From Chloroflexota bacterium (GTDB lineage: Bacteria; Chloroflexota; Chloroflexia; Thermobaculales; Thermobaculaceae): 41,391 nt of DNA. The position numbers and the translations under genes are program-made. The notes below the pieces were generated by a model, which worked only from the letters and a program-made list of their open reading frames with translations, was not told the origin of the DNA and did not search any database. The stretch covers positions 1 through 41,391 of the forward strand of contig CADDYR010000004.1 in the NCBI GenBank assembly GCA_902810765.1, written 5' to 3'. Shown here piece by piece: positions 2,943-17,203 of the stretch (positions are counted from its first letter, which is position 1; each line of letters begins with the position of its first letter).

Positions 2943-3989
2943 CTATATCGGGTGCAGCCCCGGAAACTCGAGCGCGGCCGTCTCGGGGAACCCGAACCGG
3001 ACGTTGAACGCCTGCACGGCCTGCCCCGCGGCCCCCTTCATGAGGTTGTCGAGGGCAGCCATTACCACCACTCGCCCGTTGCGCTCGTCGAGCTCGAAGC
3101 CCACGTCACAGTAGTTGCTGCCCGCGAGGATCTTGGGCTCGGGATAGCGGTACACCCCGCTCGTCTCCTTGACGATCCTCATGAACGGCTCCTTCGCGTA
3201 CGCCCTGCGGTATATCCTCCAGAGCTCGCGCTCGTCCATCGGCTCCTTCAGGAAGACGTGGGAGGTCGAGAGTATGCCTCGCACGGCCTCGATCGAGGTC
3301 GCGGAGAACGAGATCCGTGGTGTGCCGTGGTCGCACGACAGCTCCTGCACGATCTCCGCGGTGTGGCGGTGGCCCGTGGGCTTGAACGACCTCATCGCGC
3401 CGCTCCGCTCGGGGTGGTGCGTGGCGAGCGAAACCCCGCCGCCCGCGCCAGACGAGCCGGTCTTGCCCTCGATCACCACCGGCTCGTCCAGGTCCACCAC
3501 CCCGGCCTGGAACAGCGGGTACAGTCCAAGGATCGCGGCCGACGAGAGGCAGCCACAGCCGGCGATGTAACTCGCTGTGTGCAGCTCCTCCCGGTGCAGC
3601 TCGGGCATCCCGTACACCCACTCCGAGAGGAGTTCGGGACGGCTGTGCTCGTGGCCGTACCATTCCGGGTAGTCATCCGGGTTGCGCAGCCGGAAGTCCG
3701 CGCTGAGGTCAATTATGACCGGCGCGAGCTCCAGCCACTCGCCGATGCGCTCCATCGCCCGGCCGTGAGGCAGCGCGAGGAAGAGCACGTCGCACCTCTC
3801 CAGGTCGTTCGAGCTCACGAACTTCAGGTCGGTGCGCTTGCGGAGGTTCGGGTGCACTTTGTACACGAACTTGCCCGCGTTCGACTCGGACGTCACCTGC
3901 TGAATGCGGACGTGCGGGTGAGAGAGGAGCAGGCGCAGGAGCTCTCCGCCCCCGTAGCCCGAGCCCCCGACTATCGAAACGTTCAGCAT
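2943..3989 (-). CDS. lysY: [LysW]-aminoadipyl/glutamyl phosphate reductase LysY
   Basis: An NADPH-dependent reductase of the ArgC/LysY family that converts the LysW-bound acyl phosphate to the semialdehyde. In the 348-residue protein the N-terminal VSIVGGSGYGGGELLRLL is a Rossmann dinucleotide-binding turn. YIAGCGCLSSAAILGL carries the catalytic Cys of the family. A SGAGGGVS loop and the HRHTAEI segment with the likely catalytic His follow. The C-terminal LDNLMKGAAGQAVQAFN is the classical ArgC/LysY ending. It starts with ATG 3989, 10 bp downstream of the ligase gene at 4000-4869, and ends 11 bp before lysZ. Whether it takes one or both carrier-bound substrates cannot be read from the sequence. 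The single copy beside two ligases favours both. Confidence 0.92.
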   Translation of the reverse strand: MLNVSIVGGSGYGGGELLRLLLSHPHVRIQQVTSESNAGKFVYKVHPNLRKRTDLKFVSSNDLERCDVLFLALPHGRAMERIGEWLELAPVIIDLSADFRLRNPDDYPEWYGHEHSRPELLSEWVYGMPELHREELHTASYIAGCGCLSSAAILGLYPLFQAGVVDLDEPVVIEGKTGSSGAGGGVSLATHHPERSGAMRSFKPTGHRHTAEIVQELSCDHGTPRISFSATSIEAVRGILSTSHVFLKEPMDERELWRIYRRAYAKEPFMRIVKETSGVYRYPEPKILAGSNYCDVGFELDERNGRVVVMAALDNLMKGAAGQAVQAFNVRFGFPETAALEFPGLHPI

Positions 3990-3999
3990 CTTCGCCTCC

Positions 4000-4869
4000 T
4001 CAGCCCGCGGCCGCCGGTTGGGCCCCGACGGTCCCCGCCTTCCGGACGAGGTATCCCACGATCTCGGCCGGGATGTCCACGTCGGTCGTCTCGATCAGAC
4101 CGTGGAACTCGGCGCCGACGTTGATCTCGATCACCTTGTAGCCATCGGGCGTCTCGATGAGATCCACCCCGGCTATGTCGGCGTCCACCGCCCCCGCAGA
4201 CCTCAGGGCTAGCTCCTCGATCTCCGGCGTGATGGGGCATCGTTCCGAGATGCCCCCGCGCGCCGTGTTGGTGATCCAGTGGTCGGATTTCCTGTACGAG
4301 GCCGCAATCACGCGGTCGCCCACGACGAACGCCCGGATGTCGCGCCCCGGCTTTCGGACGTACTCCTGAATGTAGAAGATCGAGTGGTGATACGAGCCGA
4401 GTATCTCCTTGTGCTCGAGCACCGCCTCGGCGGCCTCGCGGTCGTTGATCTTCGCCAGGAGCCTGCCCCAAGACCCCGTGTTCGGCTTGAGCACGACCGG
4501 GTAGCCCATCTCCTCTATCGCCTGCAGGGCGGAGGCCGGGGTGTAGGCGAGCATCGTGCGCAGGGTCGGGACGCCGTGCTCGATCAGCGCCATGTTCGTC
4601 AGGAACTTGTTGTCGCAGGTGATCGTCGCCTTGTAGCTGTTCACCGTGGGGATCCCCCAGCTCTCGAGCAGGCGCAGGGTGTACTCCGCGCGGCTGTGGA
4701 CGAGCCCCCGATCCAGCACGATGTCCACCTCCGGGAAGTCGCGCCTCTGGAGGTCGAACACGAGGTCGCGGTCGTCCACCCGGACGATCTCCACGCCGAG
4801 CTGCTCCGCCGCTCGGAAGATGAGCTTCTCCTCGATCCGGATTCGGGACAATAAGATACCTATCTTCAC
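4000..4869 (-). CDS. argX: LysX-family ATP-grasp ligase, probably ArgX ([LysW]-glutamate ligase)
   Basis: This 289-residue ATP-grasp ligase is predicted to join the alpha-amino group of an acidic amino acid to the C-terminal Glu of LysW. It shares with LysX the VLKPNTGSWGRLLAKI nucleotide loop, FYIQEYVRKPGRDIRAFVVG, and [12 protein letters not shown]. It differs from the second copy (5921-6769) where the substrate side chain is expected to sit: SYRKSDHW instead of [16 protein letters not shown] instead of GGGVVAID, and INVGAEFHGLIETT instead of [14 protein letters not shown]. The other copy resembles Thermus LysX as I recall it, so I infer that this one is the glutamate-specific ArgX. It begins with GTG 4869 in a GTGA overlap with lysK and is followed 10 bp later by lysY. 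The family is certain; the substrate is inferred. Confidence 0.72.
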   Translation of the reverse strand: MKIGILLSRIRIEEKLIFRAAEQLGVEIVRVDDRDLVFDLQRRDFPEVDIVLDRGLVHSRAEYTLRLLESWGIPTVNSYKATITCDNKFLTNMALIEHGVPTLRTMLAYTPASALQAIEEMGYPVVLKPNTGSWGRLLAKINDREAAEAVLEHKEILGSYHHSIFYIQEYVRKPGRDIRAFVVGDRVIAASYRKSDHWITNTARGGISERCPITPEIEELALRSAGAVDADIAGVDLIETPDGYKVIEINVGAEFHGLIETTDVDIPAEIVGYLVRKAGTVGAQPAAAG

Positions 4870-5924
4870 TTCGTCTCCGCCTCGTCAAGAATCTTGAGCG
4901 CGGCCTCGAGCACCCCTATCGCGCGCTCGTACTCCTCGAGCTCCAGATGCTCGTGCGGGGTGTGGTCGAGGGAGGAGTCGCCGGGACCGTACGCGAGCAT
5001 CGGGCACCGCCAGACCGGGCCAACCACGTTCATGTCGGAGGTGCCCGTCTTGACCTTGAACCTCGGCCGGGCACCAGCCCCGCGCAGCGCCCACAGGAAG
5101 CTTCGGACGAGTGGCGTGTCCCTATCTCCCCTCACCGCGGGATCGCCGTACGCTATCCGGAGCGCGGCCCCCTCGGCCCACTCCTCCAGCTGGCATCCGA
5201 GCCTCTCCGGCTCGTAGCCGAGCGGCAGCCGCACGCCCACGTCCATCTCGACGCGCTCGCTGAGGCCGTCGCTCGCGCTGTGGATCGAGCGCAGCGCGGG
5301 GGATACCTGATCGAACACCCTCTTCCCCTCGTTGTACTCGTCCGTCGCGCACTTGAGCCGGTTCCAGAACCGCACCGCGGCCTCGGGCGCGGACTCCTCG
5401 GGCCCCGCGCTGTGGCTCGGCGAGCGCTCGAGCGAGTAGCTCACCCGCAGGCTCCCCTTGTAGCCGAGCACGACGCTGTCCCACCCGCTCGGCTCGCCGA
5501 TCACGAGGTATCGCGGGCTGTACCGGTGTACGATGTATCGAGCGCCTCGCGAGTCGCCCTCCTCGCCCACCGCGCCGATCACCGTGAGCTTCAGGCGCTC
5601 GAGCGCTTGGGAGGCGGCGAGGCGCAGCGCCACGGCGGCGAACGCGGCCATCGCACCCTTCGCGTCCACGGCCCCCCGGCCGTAGAGCGCGCCGTCGCGC
5701 TCCTCTACCGGGATCTCCCCCGGCACGGTGTCTATGTGGCCGAGCAGCACGACCTCCACCGGCCCGTCGCCGACGGCGGCCACGAAGTTGCCCGCCTCGT
5801 CCGCGGCGGCCTCCAGCCCGTGGGAGCGGAACAGCCCGACGAGAAAACCGCAGACCCCGGCCTCCTCTCCCGTGGGGCTGTAGCGCTCGAGCATCTCCCG
5901 GAGGATGTCGCGCTCCCTCGTCAC
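4866..5924 (-). CDS. lysK: [LysW]-lysine/ornithine hydrolase LysK
   Basis: An M20-family metallohydrolase that releases free lysine or ornithine from LysW in the last step of the carrier cycle. The 352-residue protein has [16 protein letters not shown] with the first metal-binding His and the Asp two residues on. [14 protein letters not shown] carries the bridging Asp. [16 protein letters not shown] carries the catalytic and metal-binding Glu pair. A C-terminal [15 protein letters not shown] supplies the last His. GTG 5924 overlaps the lysX stop by 4 bp, and its stop overlaps the next ligase start by 4 bp, so it is translationally coupled on both sides. Homologous ArgE/DapE deacylases are alternatives, but the position between two LysX-family ligases and near lysW makes LysK the better call. 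Confidence 0.9.
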
Positions 5925-6769
5925 CTTCGCGCCCCCTCGCCCACGGCGATGACGTAGTCGGCGATGTGGCCGGGGATGTCCACCCCGGTCGTCGCGATGC
6001 TGTTGCGGAACTCCATAGTGTAGTTGACCTCGATGACCTCGAGGCCCTCGGGCGTCTCCACGAGGTCTATAGCCACCACTCCCCCGCCCACGGCCTGCGC
6101 CGCCTGCCTGGAGATGTGCTCCAGCTCGTCGGTTATCGGGCAGTTCTCCGCCCTGCCGCCCCGCGCGGTGTTCGTGATCCAGTGGTCGGAGTAGCGGTAG
6201 ATCGCGGCGATCACCCGGTCGCCCACGACGAACGAGCGAATGTCCCGGCCCGGCTTCTCCACCAGCTCCTGGATGTAGAAGATCGAGTGGTGGAACGTCC
6301 CGAGGATCTCCTTGTGCTCTAGGATGGCCTCGGCGGCGTAGCGGTCGCTGACGCGCGAGATCAGCCTGCCCCAGGAGCCGATGGGGGGCTTAAGCACGAC
6401 AGGGTAGCCGATCCGCTCGATCGCCTCCAGCGCCGACTCGGGAGTGAACGCGACGAGCGTGCGCGGCGTGGGCACGCCGCACCGGACCAGCGCCGCAGAG
6501 GTCTCGAGCTTGTTTCCGCAGATCGCCGCCACCTGGTGGGTATTGACTGTCGGCACCCCCCAGTCGTTCAGGATGCGGAGCGCGCTGAGCGCACGGGAGT
6601 GGTTGATCGCGCGCTCGAGCACGACGTCGTAGTCGAGGTCGGGGTGCTCGAGGTCGAGCACGACCTCTGGGTCGTAGATGCGCTCGGGCCGGATGCCCCG
6701 GTCCGCGAACGCTTCGAACAGCAGCTTCTCCTCGACACGGACCCGTGAGAGCAGGACGCCTATCTTCAC
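5921..6769 (-). CDS. lysX: [LysW]-2-aminoadipate ligase LysX
   Basis: A 282-residue ATP-grasp ligase that attaches 2-aminoadipate to LysW to start the second half of aminoadipate lysine synthesis. Visible are the N-terminal [19 protein letters not shown], the nucleotide loop [36 protein letters not shown], and [33 protein letters not shown] and [20 protein letters not shown] follow. The last segments agree closely with Thermus LysX as I remember it (AENCP, VGGGVVAVDL, EVNHTMEFKNS), so this is the better aminoadipate-specific candidate of the two copies. It starts with GTG 6769, 33 bp after lysW, and overlaps lysK by 4 bp. The specificity assignment rests on recalled motifs, not on an alignment. 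Confidence 0.85.
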
Positions 6770-6802
6770 CTTCGCCGCTCGTCGGTCATCGGCTTGCCGG
6801 GG

Positions 6803-6979
6803 CTACTCGCCCCAGTCCTCCTCTTCCTCTGGCGCGAGCTCGAGCTCGGGCGGGTCCACGCTCACCACCTCGAGCTCGGCAGCGCAGTCGGGGCACTGCA
6901 CGATCTCCCCCTTCTCCGCGTCCGCGAGCTGGATCTCGGCCTCGCACTCGGGACAGGTCGCGGTGTTCGTCTGGCTCAT
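6803..6979 (-). CDS. lysW: amino-group carrier protein LysW
   Basis: A tiny acidic carrier protein of 58 residues. Its C-terminal Glu is the attachment point for aminoadipate or glutamate, shielding the amino group and presenting intermediates to the Lys enzymes. The translation has two Cys pairs forming a zinc ribbon, CPEC (residues 9-12) and CPDC (29-32), and an acidic tail ending [13 protein letters not shown] at the very C-terminus is the diagnostic LysW signature. The start is ATG 6979, preceded by an AGGAGAGG-like site, 19 bp after argH. It ends at TAG 6803, 33 bp before lysX. The high Asp/Glu content matches the electrostatic binding known for the family. Confidence 0.96.
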
Positions 6980-6998
6980 CGTGACACCTCTCCTTGGA

Positions 6999-8348
6999 TT
7001 ACTTGTCGAACAGGTTCCTGAAGGATGCGTTCAGCTTCTCGATCTGTCCTGAGACCCGCTCCTGCTCGGCGCCTATGGCGTCCGTGAGGGCGGCGAGCCC
7101 CAGGTTGCCGCTCGCGCCCAGGTGGGTGCGCTTGCTCAGGCTCTCCCTGGGGTCGGCCGGAGGCAGGTCCTGAAGGCTCGCGCCCACCTGGCGGTACGCG
7201 TCTCGGAACGGCACGCCCCGCTGCACGAGCTCGTACGCCCGGTCGGTCGCGAACAGCTCGGGCGTGCAGGCCACGAGCATCCGATCCTCGTTCGGCTCGA
7301 GGCTGCCGACGGTCAGCTCCGCGACGGCCAGCGCGTCGAGCGTCGTCTGCACCGCCTCCATGAACGGCTTCTTCGTCTCCTGATAGTCCTTGTTGTAGCC
7401 AGAGGGCAGCCCGATCAGGACGCCCATCACCTGCTGCTGGTACCCCAGGACCAGGCTCGCCTTGGCGCGGATGAGCTCCATCATGCTCAGATTCTTCTTC
7501 TGGGGCATGATGGAGCTGCCGGTCACGAGCGCGTCCGAGACGGTGAAGAAGCCGTACTCGGCGGTCGTGAACAGCAGCGTGTCCTGCGCGAGCTTGCTGA
7601 GGTCGAGCATGATCTGGGCGAGCGCCTGGATCACCGCCGCCTCGACCTTGCCCCGGCTGTTCTGGGCGTACAACACGTTGTTCTGGACCTTCGCGAACCC
7701 CAGCCTGTCGGCGACGTACTGCCTGTCTATCGGCAGCGGCACCCCGTAGGAGGCCGCGGAGCCCAGCGGCGACTGGTCATTCAGGACATACGCCGTCCGG
7801 AGGAACAGCCGGTCGTCGAACAGCGCCTCCGCGAACGCCCCGGCCCAGGTGCCCGCGCTCGACAGCATCGCCCTCTGCATGTGCGTGTAGCCGGGCATCG
7901 GCACGAGCTCGTGCCTCTGGGCGAACCGCGCGAGCGCGGCGGCGCAGCTCAGGAGCGCGGCCTCCAGCTCCAGCAGCCTGCGCTTCGTGTACAGCCTGAG
8001 GGCGAGCAGCACCTGGTCGTTGCGCGACCTCGCCGTGTGGATCTTCTTGCCGACGTCGCCGTACCGCGCGACGAGGTAGTTCTCGATCTTCGTGTGAACG
8101 TCCTCGTCCTCCGGCGTCATCCGGAACTCGCCGGCCTCGTGGAGCCTGAGGATCTCCACGAGGCCGGCGCGCAGCCGATCGAGCTCCTCGGGAGCGAGCA
8201 CGCCGATCCTCTCCAGCATCTCGGCGTGCGCCAGGGAGCCGTACACGTCCGGCTCGACCAGCTCGTTGTCGAAGACCAGGTCGTCCCCGACCTCGAACCG
8301 CTCGATCGTCGCGTCCAGCCTCTGGCCCTTCTCCCAGAGCTTGCTCAC
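6999..8348 (-). CDS. argH: argininosuccinate lyase ArgH
   Basis: Cleaves argininosuccinate to arginine and fumarate, the last step of arginine synthesis. The 449-residue protein belongs to the fumarase/aspartase superfamily. It contains the signature [11 protein letters not shown], with the mobile-loop catalytic Ser in the SS pair, plus [17 protein letters not shown] and [10 protein letters not shown] with the catalytic His region. GTG 8348 overlaps the argG stop by 4 bp (GTGA), so the two are translationally coupled, and lysW follows after 19 bp. The direct argG-argH-lysW linkage is the strongest local evidence that the LysW genes take part in arginine as well as lysine synthesis. Confidence 0.96.
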
Positions 8349-9595
8349 TTAGCGGCTCCCACCTTCTGGGATTCCTGCTCCCTCCGCGCGAGCAGCTCGA
8401 ACGGCAGGCCCCAGATCTGTGCGGTCGGGCCGCAGAGCTGCTGGTTGAAGCTCGCGCTCGAGATCGAGCGAACGTCCGGGAAGAACAGGCCGGTCGGCGA
8501 CTTCCGCTCGAGGATGTCGACATTGCCCTTGTAGAGCTGGACCTTGTACGTGCCGTTCACGACGCCCTGCGACTGGGCGATGAACGCGTCGAGGTCGGCC
8601 TTCAGCGGGTGGTACCACTCGCCGTGGTACACCTTGTACGCCCACTGGGCGTCCACGATCTTCTTGAACTGGACCTCGTCCTTCGTGAGCGTGAACTGTT
8701 CGAGGTCCTGGTGGATCTTGATGATGATTTGGGCCGCGGGGGCCTCGTAGATCTCCCGCGACTTCATGTCCATGATCCCGTCCTCGAACATGTCTATCTT
8801 GCCGATGCCGTTCCGGCCACCGACATCGTTGAGCTCGTTGATGATGTCCTCGAGCTCCATCTTCCGGCCGTCGAGCGCGACGGGCAGGCCGGCCTCGAAC
8901 TCTATCGCGAGCGTCGTCGCCTGGTCGGGCGTCTTCTGGGGCGGGGTGTACCACAGCCACACGTCGTCCGGCAGCTCGGTCTCGAGGGTGATGCCGCCGC
9001 TCGCGATGGACCGGCACCACATCGTCTTGTCGTCGCCGCCCGCGATGATCTCGGTGACCGGCACGCCGTAGCGCTCGCAGAGCTCCATCTCCTCGGTCCG
9101 CGTGAGGTCGAAGTCGCGCACAGGCACGATGATCTCGAGCTGGGGCGCGAAGTACTTGAACACCTTGTGCATTCGGTACTGGTCGTTGCCCTTGCCGCTC
9201 GAGCCCTCCGCGAGCGCGTCGCAGCCGAGCTCCACCGCCTTCTGCGCGACCTTCCCGGCGATGAGCTGCCGCGTCATCGAGGTGGAGACGGGATAGCCGT
9301 TGTAGCTCGAGTTGGCGCGGATGGCCTTCGTGAGCCAATCGCTCGTGAACTCGTCCTTGGCGTCGATCAGGATCGGCTCGACTCCGAGGATCTTCGCCTT
9401 GCTGAAGCTCTGCTGGACCTCGTCCTCGCCCTGGCCGACGTCCACGGTGATGGGGACGATCTCCTCAGCCCTGTACTTCTCGCGCAGCAGCACCACGCAC
9501 AGCGCCGAGTCGAGGCCGCCCGAGTACGCGAGCGCGACCTTGCGCACCTTGGGCACGTCCGTCTGCTGAACCTTCTCGATTGCCGAAAGCGTCAT
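8345..9595 (-). CDS. argG: argininosuccinate synthase ArgG
   Basis: Condenses citrulline and aspartate with ATP hydrolysis to AMP to give argininosuccinate. The 416-residue protein has the N-type PP-loop ALAYSGGLDSALCVVLL near residues 22-38, the ALAEGSSGKGNDQYR region that binds citrulline/aspartate, and a C-terminal multimerisation domain. ATG 9595 is preceded by AGGAGGAGAACA. It is the first gene of the operon and lies directly behind the arginine T-box leader and its terminator (9638-9920). The first roughly 15 residues form a short polar extension before the PP-loop strand. Downstream it overlaps argH by 4 bp. Confidence 0.96.
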   Translation of the reverse strand: MTLSAIEKVQQTDVPKVRKVALAYSGGLDSALCVVLLREKYRAEEIVPITVDVGQGEDEVQQSFSKAKILGVEPILIDAKDEFTSDWLTKAIRANSSYNGYPVSTSMTRQLIAGKVAQKAVELGCDALAEGSSGKGNDQYRMHKVFKYFAPQLEIIVPVRDFDLTRTEEMELCERYGVPVTEIIAGGDDKTMWCRSIASGGITLETELPDDVWLWYTPPQKTPDQATTLAIEFEAGLPVALDGRKMELEDIINELNDVGGRNGIGKIDMFEDGIMDMKSREIYEAPAAQIIIKIHQDLEQFTLTKDEVQFKKIVDAQWAYKVYHGEWYHPLKADLDAFIAQSQGVVNGTYKVQLYKGNVDILERKSPTGLFFPDVRSISSASFNQQLCGPTAQIWGLPFELLARREQESQKVGAAK

Positions 9596-15770: not shown

Positions 15771-15812
15771 TTGCTCGTCTGGAGCAAACCGTATCAGGAG
15801 GTAGGCGACACC

Positions 15813-16447
15813 ATGAGGTGCTATCTCACGTACGATGCTCACTGCCCGCTGTGCACCCATCTGGCAGAGGTGGTGCAGGAGGCCTCCGGCGACAGGGTGG
15901 AGACCCTAGCGCTCGATGATCCCGGGACGAGGGAGTTGCTCGACCGAGCGTTCCCCAAGGGGTGGCCATCCGGCTCCCTACCTCGTGCTAGAGAGGGTGC
16001 GCGCCTGGACGGGGATGACCTGCGGGCTCCTCTGCGTTGGTGGGTCCTCGCAAGGCTTGGATTGTGTGGAACGAGGGCCGCAGGTACGGCATCCACCTGC
16101 CTCCCGGACACAGGACGACTTCTGCGACGGCTCTGTCCCGGCGCAGGTTCCTGAGGCGTGCGGCGAGTGTGATGGCAGGACTCGTCGGCACTGGATTCCT
16201 CGCTTCCAAGGCACTCGCAGCACCACAATGCGTTTATTGCAGTAACGGCCCGGGTGGTTGCGGCATTGTGTGCGACACCACGGGACCTTGTGTGCAGGCT
16301 GGCCCCTGCGACAGCGAGCCTGGCAGAGATCCAGCAGTCCCCGCCTACAAGTACTGTCGCAAGATCGCTTGCCGAGATGGGGCTACCGGGGACGTGTGTT
16401 ACTACAAGTACACGCACTGCGGCTGTAACTGCAACTGCTGTGGTTAG
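15813..16447 (+). pseudogene. frame-disrupted fusion: thioredoxin-like CPLC domain + Tat signal + Cys-rich tail
   Basis: Three frames read in succession look like one protein. Frame A from ATG 15813 gives MRCYLTYDAHCPLCTHL, a DCC/thioredoxin-like start with a CPLC redox pair, and runs to FPKGW. Near 15966 it must shift to a second frame (HPAPYLVLERVRAWTGM), and near 16020 to a third (ALVGPRKAWIVWNEGRRYG), which runs to the stop at 16447. Each shift is equivalent to one extra base. The third frame holds a Tat motif (SRRRFLRR), a hydrophobic span ending ALAAP, and a tail of about 73 residues with 14 Cys ending HCGCNCNCCG. No plausible start codon and Shine-Dalgarno lie close before the Tat motif, which favours an original fusion over two genes. 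Function is not known; membrane or exported redox or metal handling is a guess. Sequencing error is a real alternative to pseudogenisation. Confidence 0.65.
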
Positions 16448-16615: not shown

Positions 16616-17203
16616 ATGTGGAGATCAATGATGATTTGCCATATGGTCCCAATCCTGGCACTCACCCTCCTCTCTGTTGGGTGTGGCATCAGTCCGATGA
16701 GCAAACCTGCTCCACCCGTGAAATCCGTGCAACAGACCTCGGGGTCCGATACGCTGGTGGGTGTGGACGTAGCTGTCAGAGTCAGATGTACAGACAAGGG
16801 TGATCTCGAGTATTTGGACATCCAGAACAACTCGACCTCCCAGTTTACCGCAGTGGTCAGCACGGTCAATGTAGTGACCAGGGATCAGGCGCTCACGAAG
16901 CACTGGGCTGGCAGGTCGATAGCCAGGGATGACGAAATCCCACCTGGCGGGGCCTCGGAGTACGACGCGCCGAAGGGGGCAGGGGAGGACACGGCGCTCG
17001 CGCTGGTGCTGCCGAGGCTGTCTATCTCCGGGGAGTCAGAGCGTGGCGGCAGGGCCGACTTTACCACTGCGGAAGCAGGGGGAGGGACCATCGTCTTCAT
17101 GGGGTGCAACGGCAGCAACGAATTCGATAGCGGCGTAGTCCTGTTGTCCACGGACTTCACAGCTCCTGGCGTATCACCTCCCATACACACGAACGGTGGA
17201 TAA
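16616..17203 (+). CDS. predicted lipoprotein, unknown function
   Basis: A 195-residue protein beginning at ATG 16616, with GGGGAGGAAG about 8 bp upstream. An in-frame upstream extension to 16454 is unlikely to be used. Residues 1-23 form a lipoprotein signal (hydrophobic VPILALTLLSVGC) with the lipobox Cys at position 23. The mature part has a Pro/Ser-rich linker and a domain containing VAVRVRCTDKGDLEYLDIQN, IPPGGASEY, TALALVLPRLSISG and GGTIVFMGCNGSNEF. It has two Cys in the body and looks like a small beta-rich extracellular domain. I do not recognise a family. It follows the Cys-rich fusion gene by 168 bp on the same strand, so the two may have been expressed together as surface proteins. 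Confidence 0.65.
   Translation: MWRSMMICHMVPILALTLLSVGCGISPMSKPAPPVKSVQQTSGSDTLVGVDVAVRVRCTDKGDLEYLDIQNNSTSQFTAVVSTVNVVTRDQALTKHWAGRSIARDDEIPPGGASEYDAPKGAGEDTALALVLPRLSISGESERGGRADFTTAEAGGGTIVFMGCNGSNEFDSGVVLLSTDFTAPGVSPPIHTNGG

Follow-up and report, generated by a model that had tools for sequence, protein, structure and literature searches.

The window analysed here, a stretch of 41,391 nt, carries at positions 15813 to 16447 of the forward strand a gene whose coding sequence is divided over three reading frames. Around it lie genes for amino-acid biosynthesis and one for a permease of binding-protein-dependent transport; an arginine/lysine biosynthesis group occupies 2943 to 9595 on the reverse strand (semialdehyde dehydrogenase, M20 peptidase, a LysX-like ligase, ArgH and ArgG). 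Directly behind the broken gene is a lipoprotein-like ORF without family match (16616 to 17203, forward strand; MVPILALTLLSVGCG). A Shine-Dalgarno-like AGGAGGT (15796 to 15802) lies about 10 nt before the ATG at 15813, in keeping with a preliminary description of this DNA that called the ribosome-binding site intact. The same description held the promoter to be intact as well, and this we could not uphold: the promoter scan of the upstream forward strand returned no sigma-70-like site.

One protein over three reading frames

Frame 0 begins at the ATG with MRCYLTYDAHCPLC and runs to LLDRAFPKGW (15813 to 15968); it encodes the first half of a DCC1-like thioredoxin-fold domain, with the CPLC motif at residues 11 to 14. 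Frame 1 (15969 to 16017) supplies the DCC-like third-strand region, including PYLVLERVRAWTGM (15976 to 16017), and the frame switches fall just before and just after this segment. Frame 2 resumes with the LVGPRKAWIVW helix and a linker (16025 to 16129) and continues through an internal Tat signal, LSRRRFLRR and a hydrophobic span, that ends at an ALA/AP cleavage-like site, with SRRRFLRRAASVMAGLVGTGFLASKALA standing directly before the AP (16130 to 16219). The predicted exported tail follows, from APQC to HCGCNCNCCG and the stop codon at 16445 to 16447 (16220 to 16447); it comprises 75 aa with a calculated mass of 7.8 kDa, and the 14 Cys of the preliminary description are borne out by the count.

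The proposal that the three frames make up a single protein is supported by a profile built from relatives with the window excluded. Frame 0 matches it at model positions 1 to 51 (i-E 2.8e-13) and frame 2 at positions 77 to 131 (i-E 1.5e-05), in the expected order. The frame-1 piece, at 0.3 bits too short for significance against that profile, aligns with YLVFVDA(stop)QVQAWRGM of the closest homologue, L086 (WYDT01000025.1 of Chloroflexi bacterium AL-N1, a locus that also appears as G139:C26/L015). L086 has the layout of the window gene, a DCC part (with one in-frame TAG), a Tat signal and a Cys-rich tail, and is colinear with the joined reading from the first residue through the last Cys at 37% identity. 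Shared positions in the two colinear tails include Cys, GG, AY and CY.K, but the tail similarity is modest (shuffle z of about 2.5, with about 2% of shuffles scoring as high), so the shared layout bears the rest of the homology argument. Neither in 101 genomes from the window's own family and class nor in plasmids or viral contigs were convincing close tail relatives found; the wider search of genome contigs recovered one. By profile and alignment, then, 15813 to 16447 encodes one ancestral protein, its parts now lying in frames 0, 1 and 2. The preliminary description attributed the breaks to two single-base shifts. Only the net shift of frame at either point is certain: spacings between fixed points differ by several bases on both sides in the comparison of window and L086 (34 versus 27, 36 versus 45 and 28 versus 33 nt), and these allow several indel histories, of which two single-base shifts are the simplest.

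The constant front and its distribution

The only Pfam family that recurs among the members is PF04134 (DCC1-like), which stays under its gathering cut-off of 27.8 bits wherever scores are shown: the window frame-0 ORF reaches 15.9 bits and the best relative 24.9 bits, and 11 of 27 members have E <= 0.01. Resemblance to the DCC1-like thiol-disulfide oxidoreductases (PF04134, formerly DUF393) lies in the N-terminal YDxxCxxC and in the thioredoxin-type fold of the structure model, and several members align to profile positions 1 to 95; what distinguishes the present family from them is the sub-cut-off score and the fusion to a Tat signal and exported cargo. Conservation over 27 loci and the predicted fold put the CxxC behind strand one of a thioredoxin-like fold. 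AlphaFold2 models the N-terminal 95 residues as beta-alpha-beta-alpha-beta-beta-alpha-alpha with pLDDT of about 90 and draws a helix across the Tat span behind them. Among PDB structures the best fold matches are mostly thioredoxin/PDI/GST-like, though weak (E 3e-3 and worse), and PDB sequences searched with a profile returned chance matches only.

The window Tat signal scores 17.1 bits with NCBIfam TIGR01409 (cut-off 16.7), and its twin-arginine motif, hydrophobic span and cleavage-like site are those of a Tat substrate. The S/G-RRxFLxR motif, hydrophobic span and AxA-like end of the family are as in Tat signal peptides generally, but here the signal sits inside the protein, and a folded domain makes up its N-region of about 100 aa. 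Tat components were looked for in the window's genome, and TatC was found twice, in two adjacent tatC genes (G000:C259:2527-4252).

Searched with a profile of 11 members, 24 of the 158 class genomes carry the module (E<=0.001; the weaker matches among these are short and confined to the DCC portion), as do 13 of 400 genomes drawn from the phylum (E<=1e-9) and 17 of 249 genomes of another Chloroflexota class (E<=1e-8). Intact fusions, the existence of which the preliminary description had left to be seen, occur in many Chloroflexota genomes, sometimes in multi-copy arrays, and on Streptomyces plasmids. Copy number reaches 9 matches in the single-contig genome G341 and 17 in G605, where some are pieces of one gene. 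All of 27 loci have C11, and at least 90% of them have C14 and the twin Arg; this N-terminal module (a near-invariant CxxC, then RRxFL) is constant, whereas the part downstream changes completely. A literature search, which covered few subscription journals, found no paper on DUF393/DCC fusions with Tat or halocin, and for fulvocin C found one mention each in two papers on other topics. DCC-Tat-cargo fusions constitute a real and apparently undescribed family of bacterial export precursors.

A possible objection is that an unrelated DCC-like gene has come to lie by chance beside a gene for a Tat-exported Cys-rich protein, as the physical division of the window copy over three frames might suggest. 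Intact fused homologues (for example L016, L036, L071 and L104) refute this, the two parts being joined in many genomes, and we regard chance adjacency as very improbable.

Arrays of DCC-Tat genes, with many decayed copies, lie in G341 at C1:2390000-2407000 (L089) and 600000-618000 (L090), adjoining genes for WD40-type repeat proteins, and in G605 on contigs C54, C58 and C73.

In the window itself the gene is probably a pseudogene. The main rival to this reading is that the same precursor gene is intact in the organism and that errors of sequencing or assembly in a draft of 384 contigs produced both frame changes, for which it can be said that the Cys tail, the Tat signal and the ribosome-binding site are all in good order despite the frame changes, and that the genome holds a single copy of the module. 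Yet the neighbouring genes for ArgG, ArgH, LysX, semialdehyde dehydrogenase and the permease are full length, and broken copies are common: 7 of the 19 strong loci in the class (window included) have stops or frame changes inside the module, as do 4 of the 9 matches in G341 (stops), a single-contig assembly. These two observations favour real decay, and we consider draft error rather unlikely; decay of a non-essential gene with fast turnover is the simpler reading. Programmed readthrough or frameshifting, brought to mind by the TAG or TGA codons in the DCC part of relatives, was rejected, since the lesions stand at differing positions and several copies have damage in the cargo as well, for which ordinary decay is preferred.

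Cargos and their immediate neighbours

Behind the constant front the cargos, usually rich in Cys, fall into several types. Hydrophilic Cys-rich tails are found in the window, L086, L105 and L071, the last with near-copies in L137 and L149. In L016, L033, L036, L038, L073 and L074 a variable middle domain leads into a hydrophobic, Cys-rich end of halocin type. Long Cys-rich ends bring the whole-cargo count to 22 Cys in L120 and 26 in L140. Others are Cys-poor domains, HExxH metalloprotease-like domains (L133, L134) and a Cys-containing domain of about 490 aa with TPR-like repeats (L116/L145, L143). Small separate Cys-rich ORFs lie directly behind some of the Cys-poor members (L108, L089).

Leaving aside the Tat-signal models, the best NCBIfam matches of cargos to named families are to bacteriocin families, of which only NF033852 (bacteriocin fulvocin C-related; cut-off 35 bits) is passed. 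The cargo of L104 (Chloroflexota), behind a DCC-Tat front, scores 107.9 bits (8e-31), and three Streptomyces plasmid proteins annotated as 'bacteriocin fulvocin C-related' (L153 to L155) score 94.8 to 105.6 bits; in L154 and L155 the DCC-Tat front is inside the annotated protein, while the annotated start of L153 falls within it. The model covers 150 aa of cargo only, and neither DCC nor Tat. In the draw from the phylum NF033852 was found in G465 alone among 400 genomes, and it had no match in the window or anywhere in the window's genome (G000).

The mature peptide of halocin C8 is Cys-rich. The halocin C8 models TIGR04449 and TIGR04450 give weak, on-target matches to relatives that stay below threshold (10.9 bits against a cut-off of 24) and no match in the window tail; the structure model of a member with halocin-type cargo is of low confidence beyond residue 95 and yields uninformative fold matches. 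The halocin C8 precursor (ProC8), a putative immunity/bacteriocin fusion, is exported by Tat and matured extracellularly (PMC11509114), with release of a C-terminal peptide after export (PMC11509114, PMC12893001). Tat export, predicted for our family, and a C-terminal Cys-rich peptide are common to it and to our family, which differs in placing a DCC1-like thioredoxin-fold domain ahead of the Tat signal and in having its immunity-like protein, where present, as a separate small membrane protein encoded downstream. The window tail differs further in being hydrophilic. A likeness of this tail to the methylamine dehydrogenase light chain was considered and dropped, as Pfam gave no match at E up to 10.

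For the immunity-like partner we applied a topological rule: an ORF of 55 to 135 aa with at least two hydrophobic spans, starting between -30 and +260 nt from the cargo stop. Such a gene, small and with 2 to 4 TM segments, is directly downstream in 12 of 14 members with hydrophobic cargo. Of 288 control genes taken from the ORFs of these loci 2 have one, and of 18 members with hydrophilic Cys-rich, long-domain or Cys-free cargo none does. The corresponding p-values, 4e-7 for one comparison and 8e-18 for another, are indicative only, because the rule was set after the pattern had been seen, the classes were assigned by eye and several of the loci are related. At neither the window nor L086 is there an immunity-like neighbour of the kind generally expected at a bacteriocin locus. 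Conserved neighbours over the loci are otherwise few and mostly among near relatives or same-genome copies, so that no separate maturation enzyme is indicated. In L095 and L097, behind halocin-like members, ABC-2-type permease-like genes with 6 hydrophobic spans lie about 1060 to 1890 nt downstream of the DCC-Tat gene start; these are possibly immunity exporters.

A redox domain ahead of a Tat signal

Since proteins leave through Tat in the folded state and the cytosol is a reducing compartment, it is an open practical question how the disulfides of Cys-rich peptides form ahead of such export. We favour, with moderate confidence, the reading that 15813 to 16447 is a disrupted modular export precursor, probably a pseudogene, of a kind whose intact members would export bacteriocin-like cargo through Tat. 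Their thiol-redox CxxC domain would stay on the cytosolic side, forming a long N-region for the Tat signal, where it may assist disulfide formation in the cargo or keep the attached Cys-rich cargo competent for export; Tat would translocate the folded cargo, and cleavage at AxA outside would free it, leaving the redox domain behind. The suggestion of the preliminary description that a redox domain handles its own disulfide-rich secreted product still appears the best mechanism, narrowed by the relatives to bacteriocin-like precursors, while its other suggestion, metal binding by the Cys-rich peptide, found no support in our analysis. If the favoured reading is correct, the precursor's own thiol-redox domain on the cytosolic side would be a built-in answer to making disulfide bonds before Tat export.

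The cargos are most likely bacteriocin-like peptides, to judge by the recognisable cases, which are related to fulvocin C or resemble halocin C8. The window's own cargo would be a hydrophilic relative with 14 Cys, and an activity of this sort is putative in its case, given that it matches no named bacteriocin family and has no immunity-like neighbour. Nor can the word bacteriocin cover every member, since some cargos are almost without Cys, metalloprotease-like or long and TPR-like. Such cargo domains, HExxH, TPR-like of about 490 aa or Cys-free, invite the alternative that the DCC-Tat front leads the export of surface or secreted proteins at large, whether redox, metal-binding or structural, with bacteriocin-like cargos as just one use; a Tat-less DCC-redoxin fusion beside DCC-Tat genes in L145 and L143 would also suit it. 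Against it count the bacteriocin families as best named matches, the immunity-like partner that accompanies hydrophobic cargos, and the multi-copy arrays with decayed copies, which fit conflict genes. We hold this alternative possible, at clearly less than an even chance.

Beyond the favoured reading of an export precursor for bacteriocin-like cargo, we tentatively propose, at only a little short of even, a polymorphic secretion family in which a constant 'foldase leader', a thioredoxin-fold domain with CxxC acting as the long N-region of a Tat signal, would mature and export unrelated disulfide-rich antagonistic peptides in cis, recombination in multi-copy arrays swapping the cargos. The family would moreover supply, in DCC-RRxFL, a single search key for many unannotated bacteriocin-like peptides in Chloroflexota and Actinomycetota, and this would reach cargo types that current models miss.

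Fusions of a DCC domain to a TlpA/redoxin-like domain, with no Tat motif, occur in L145 (4272-5170), L143 (5627-6120 and neighbouring, on the reverse strand of the contig piece), L119, L121 and L122. In L145 and L143 the fusion adjoins a DCC-Tat gene with long cargo, and it may serve the DCC-Tat system as a partner oxidoreductase.
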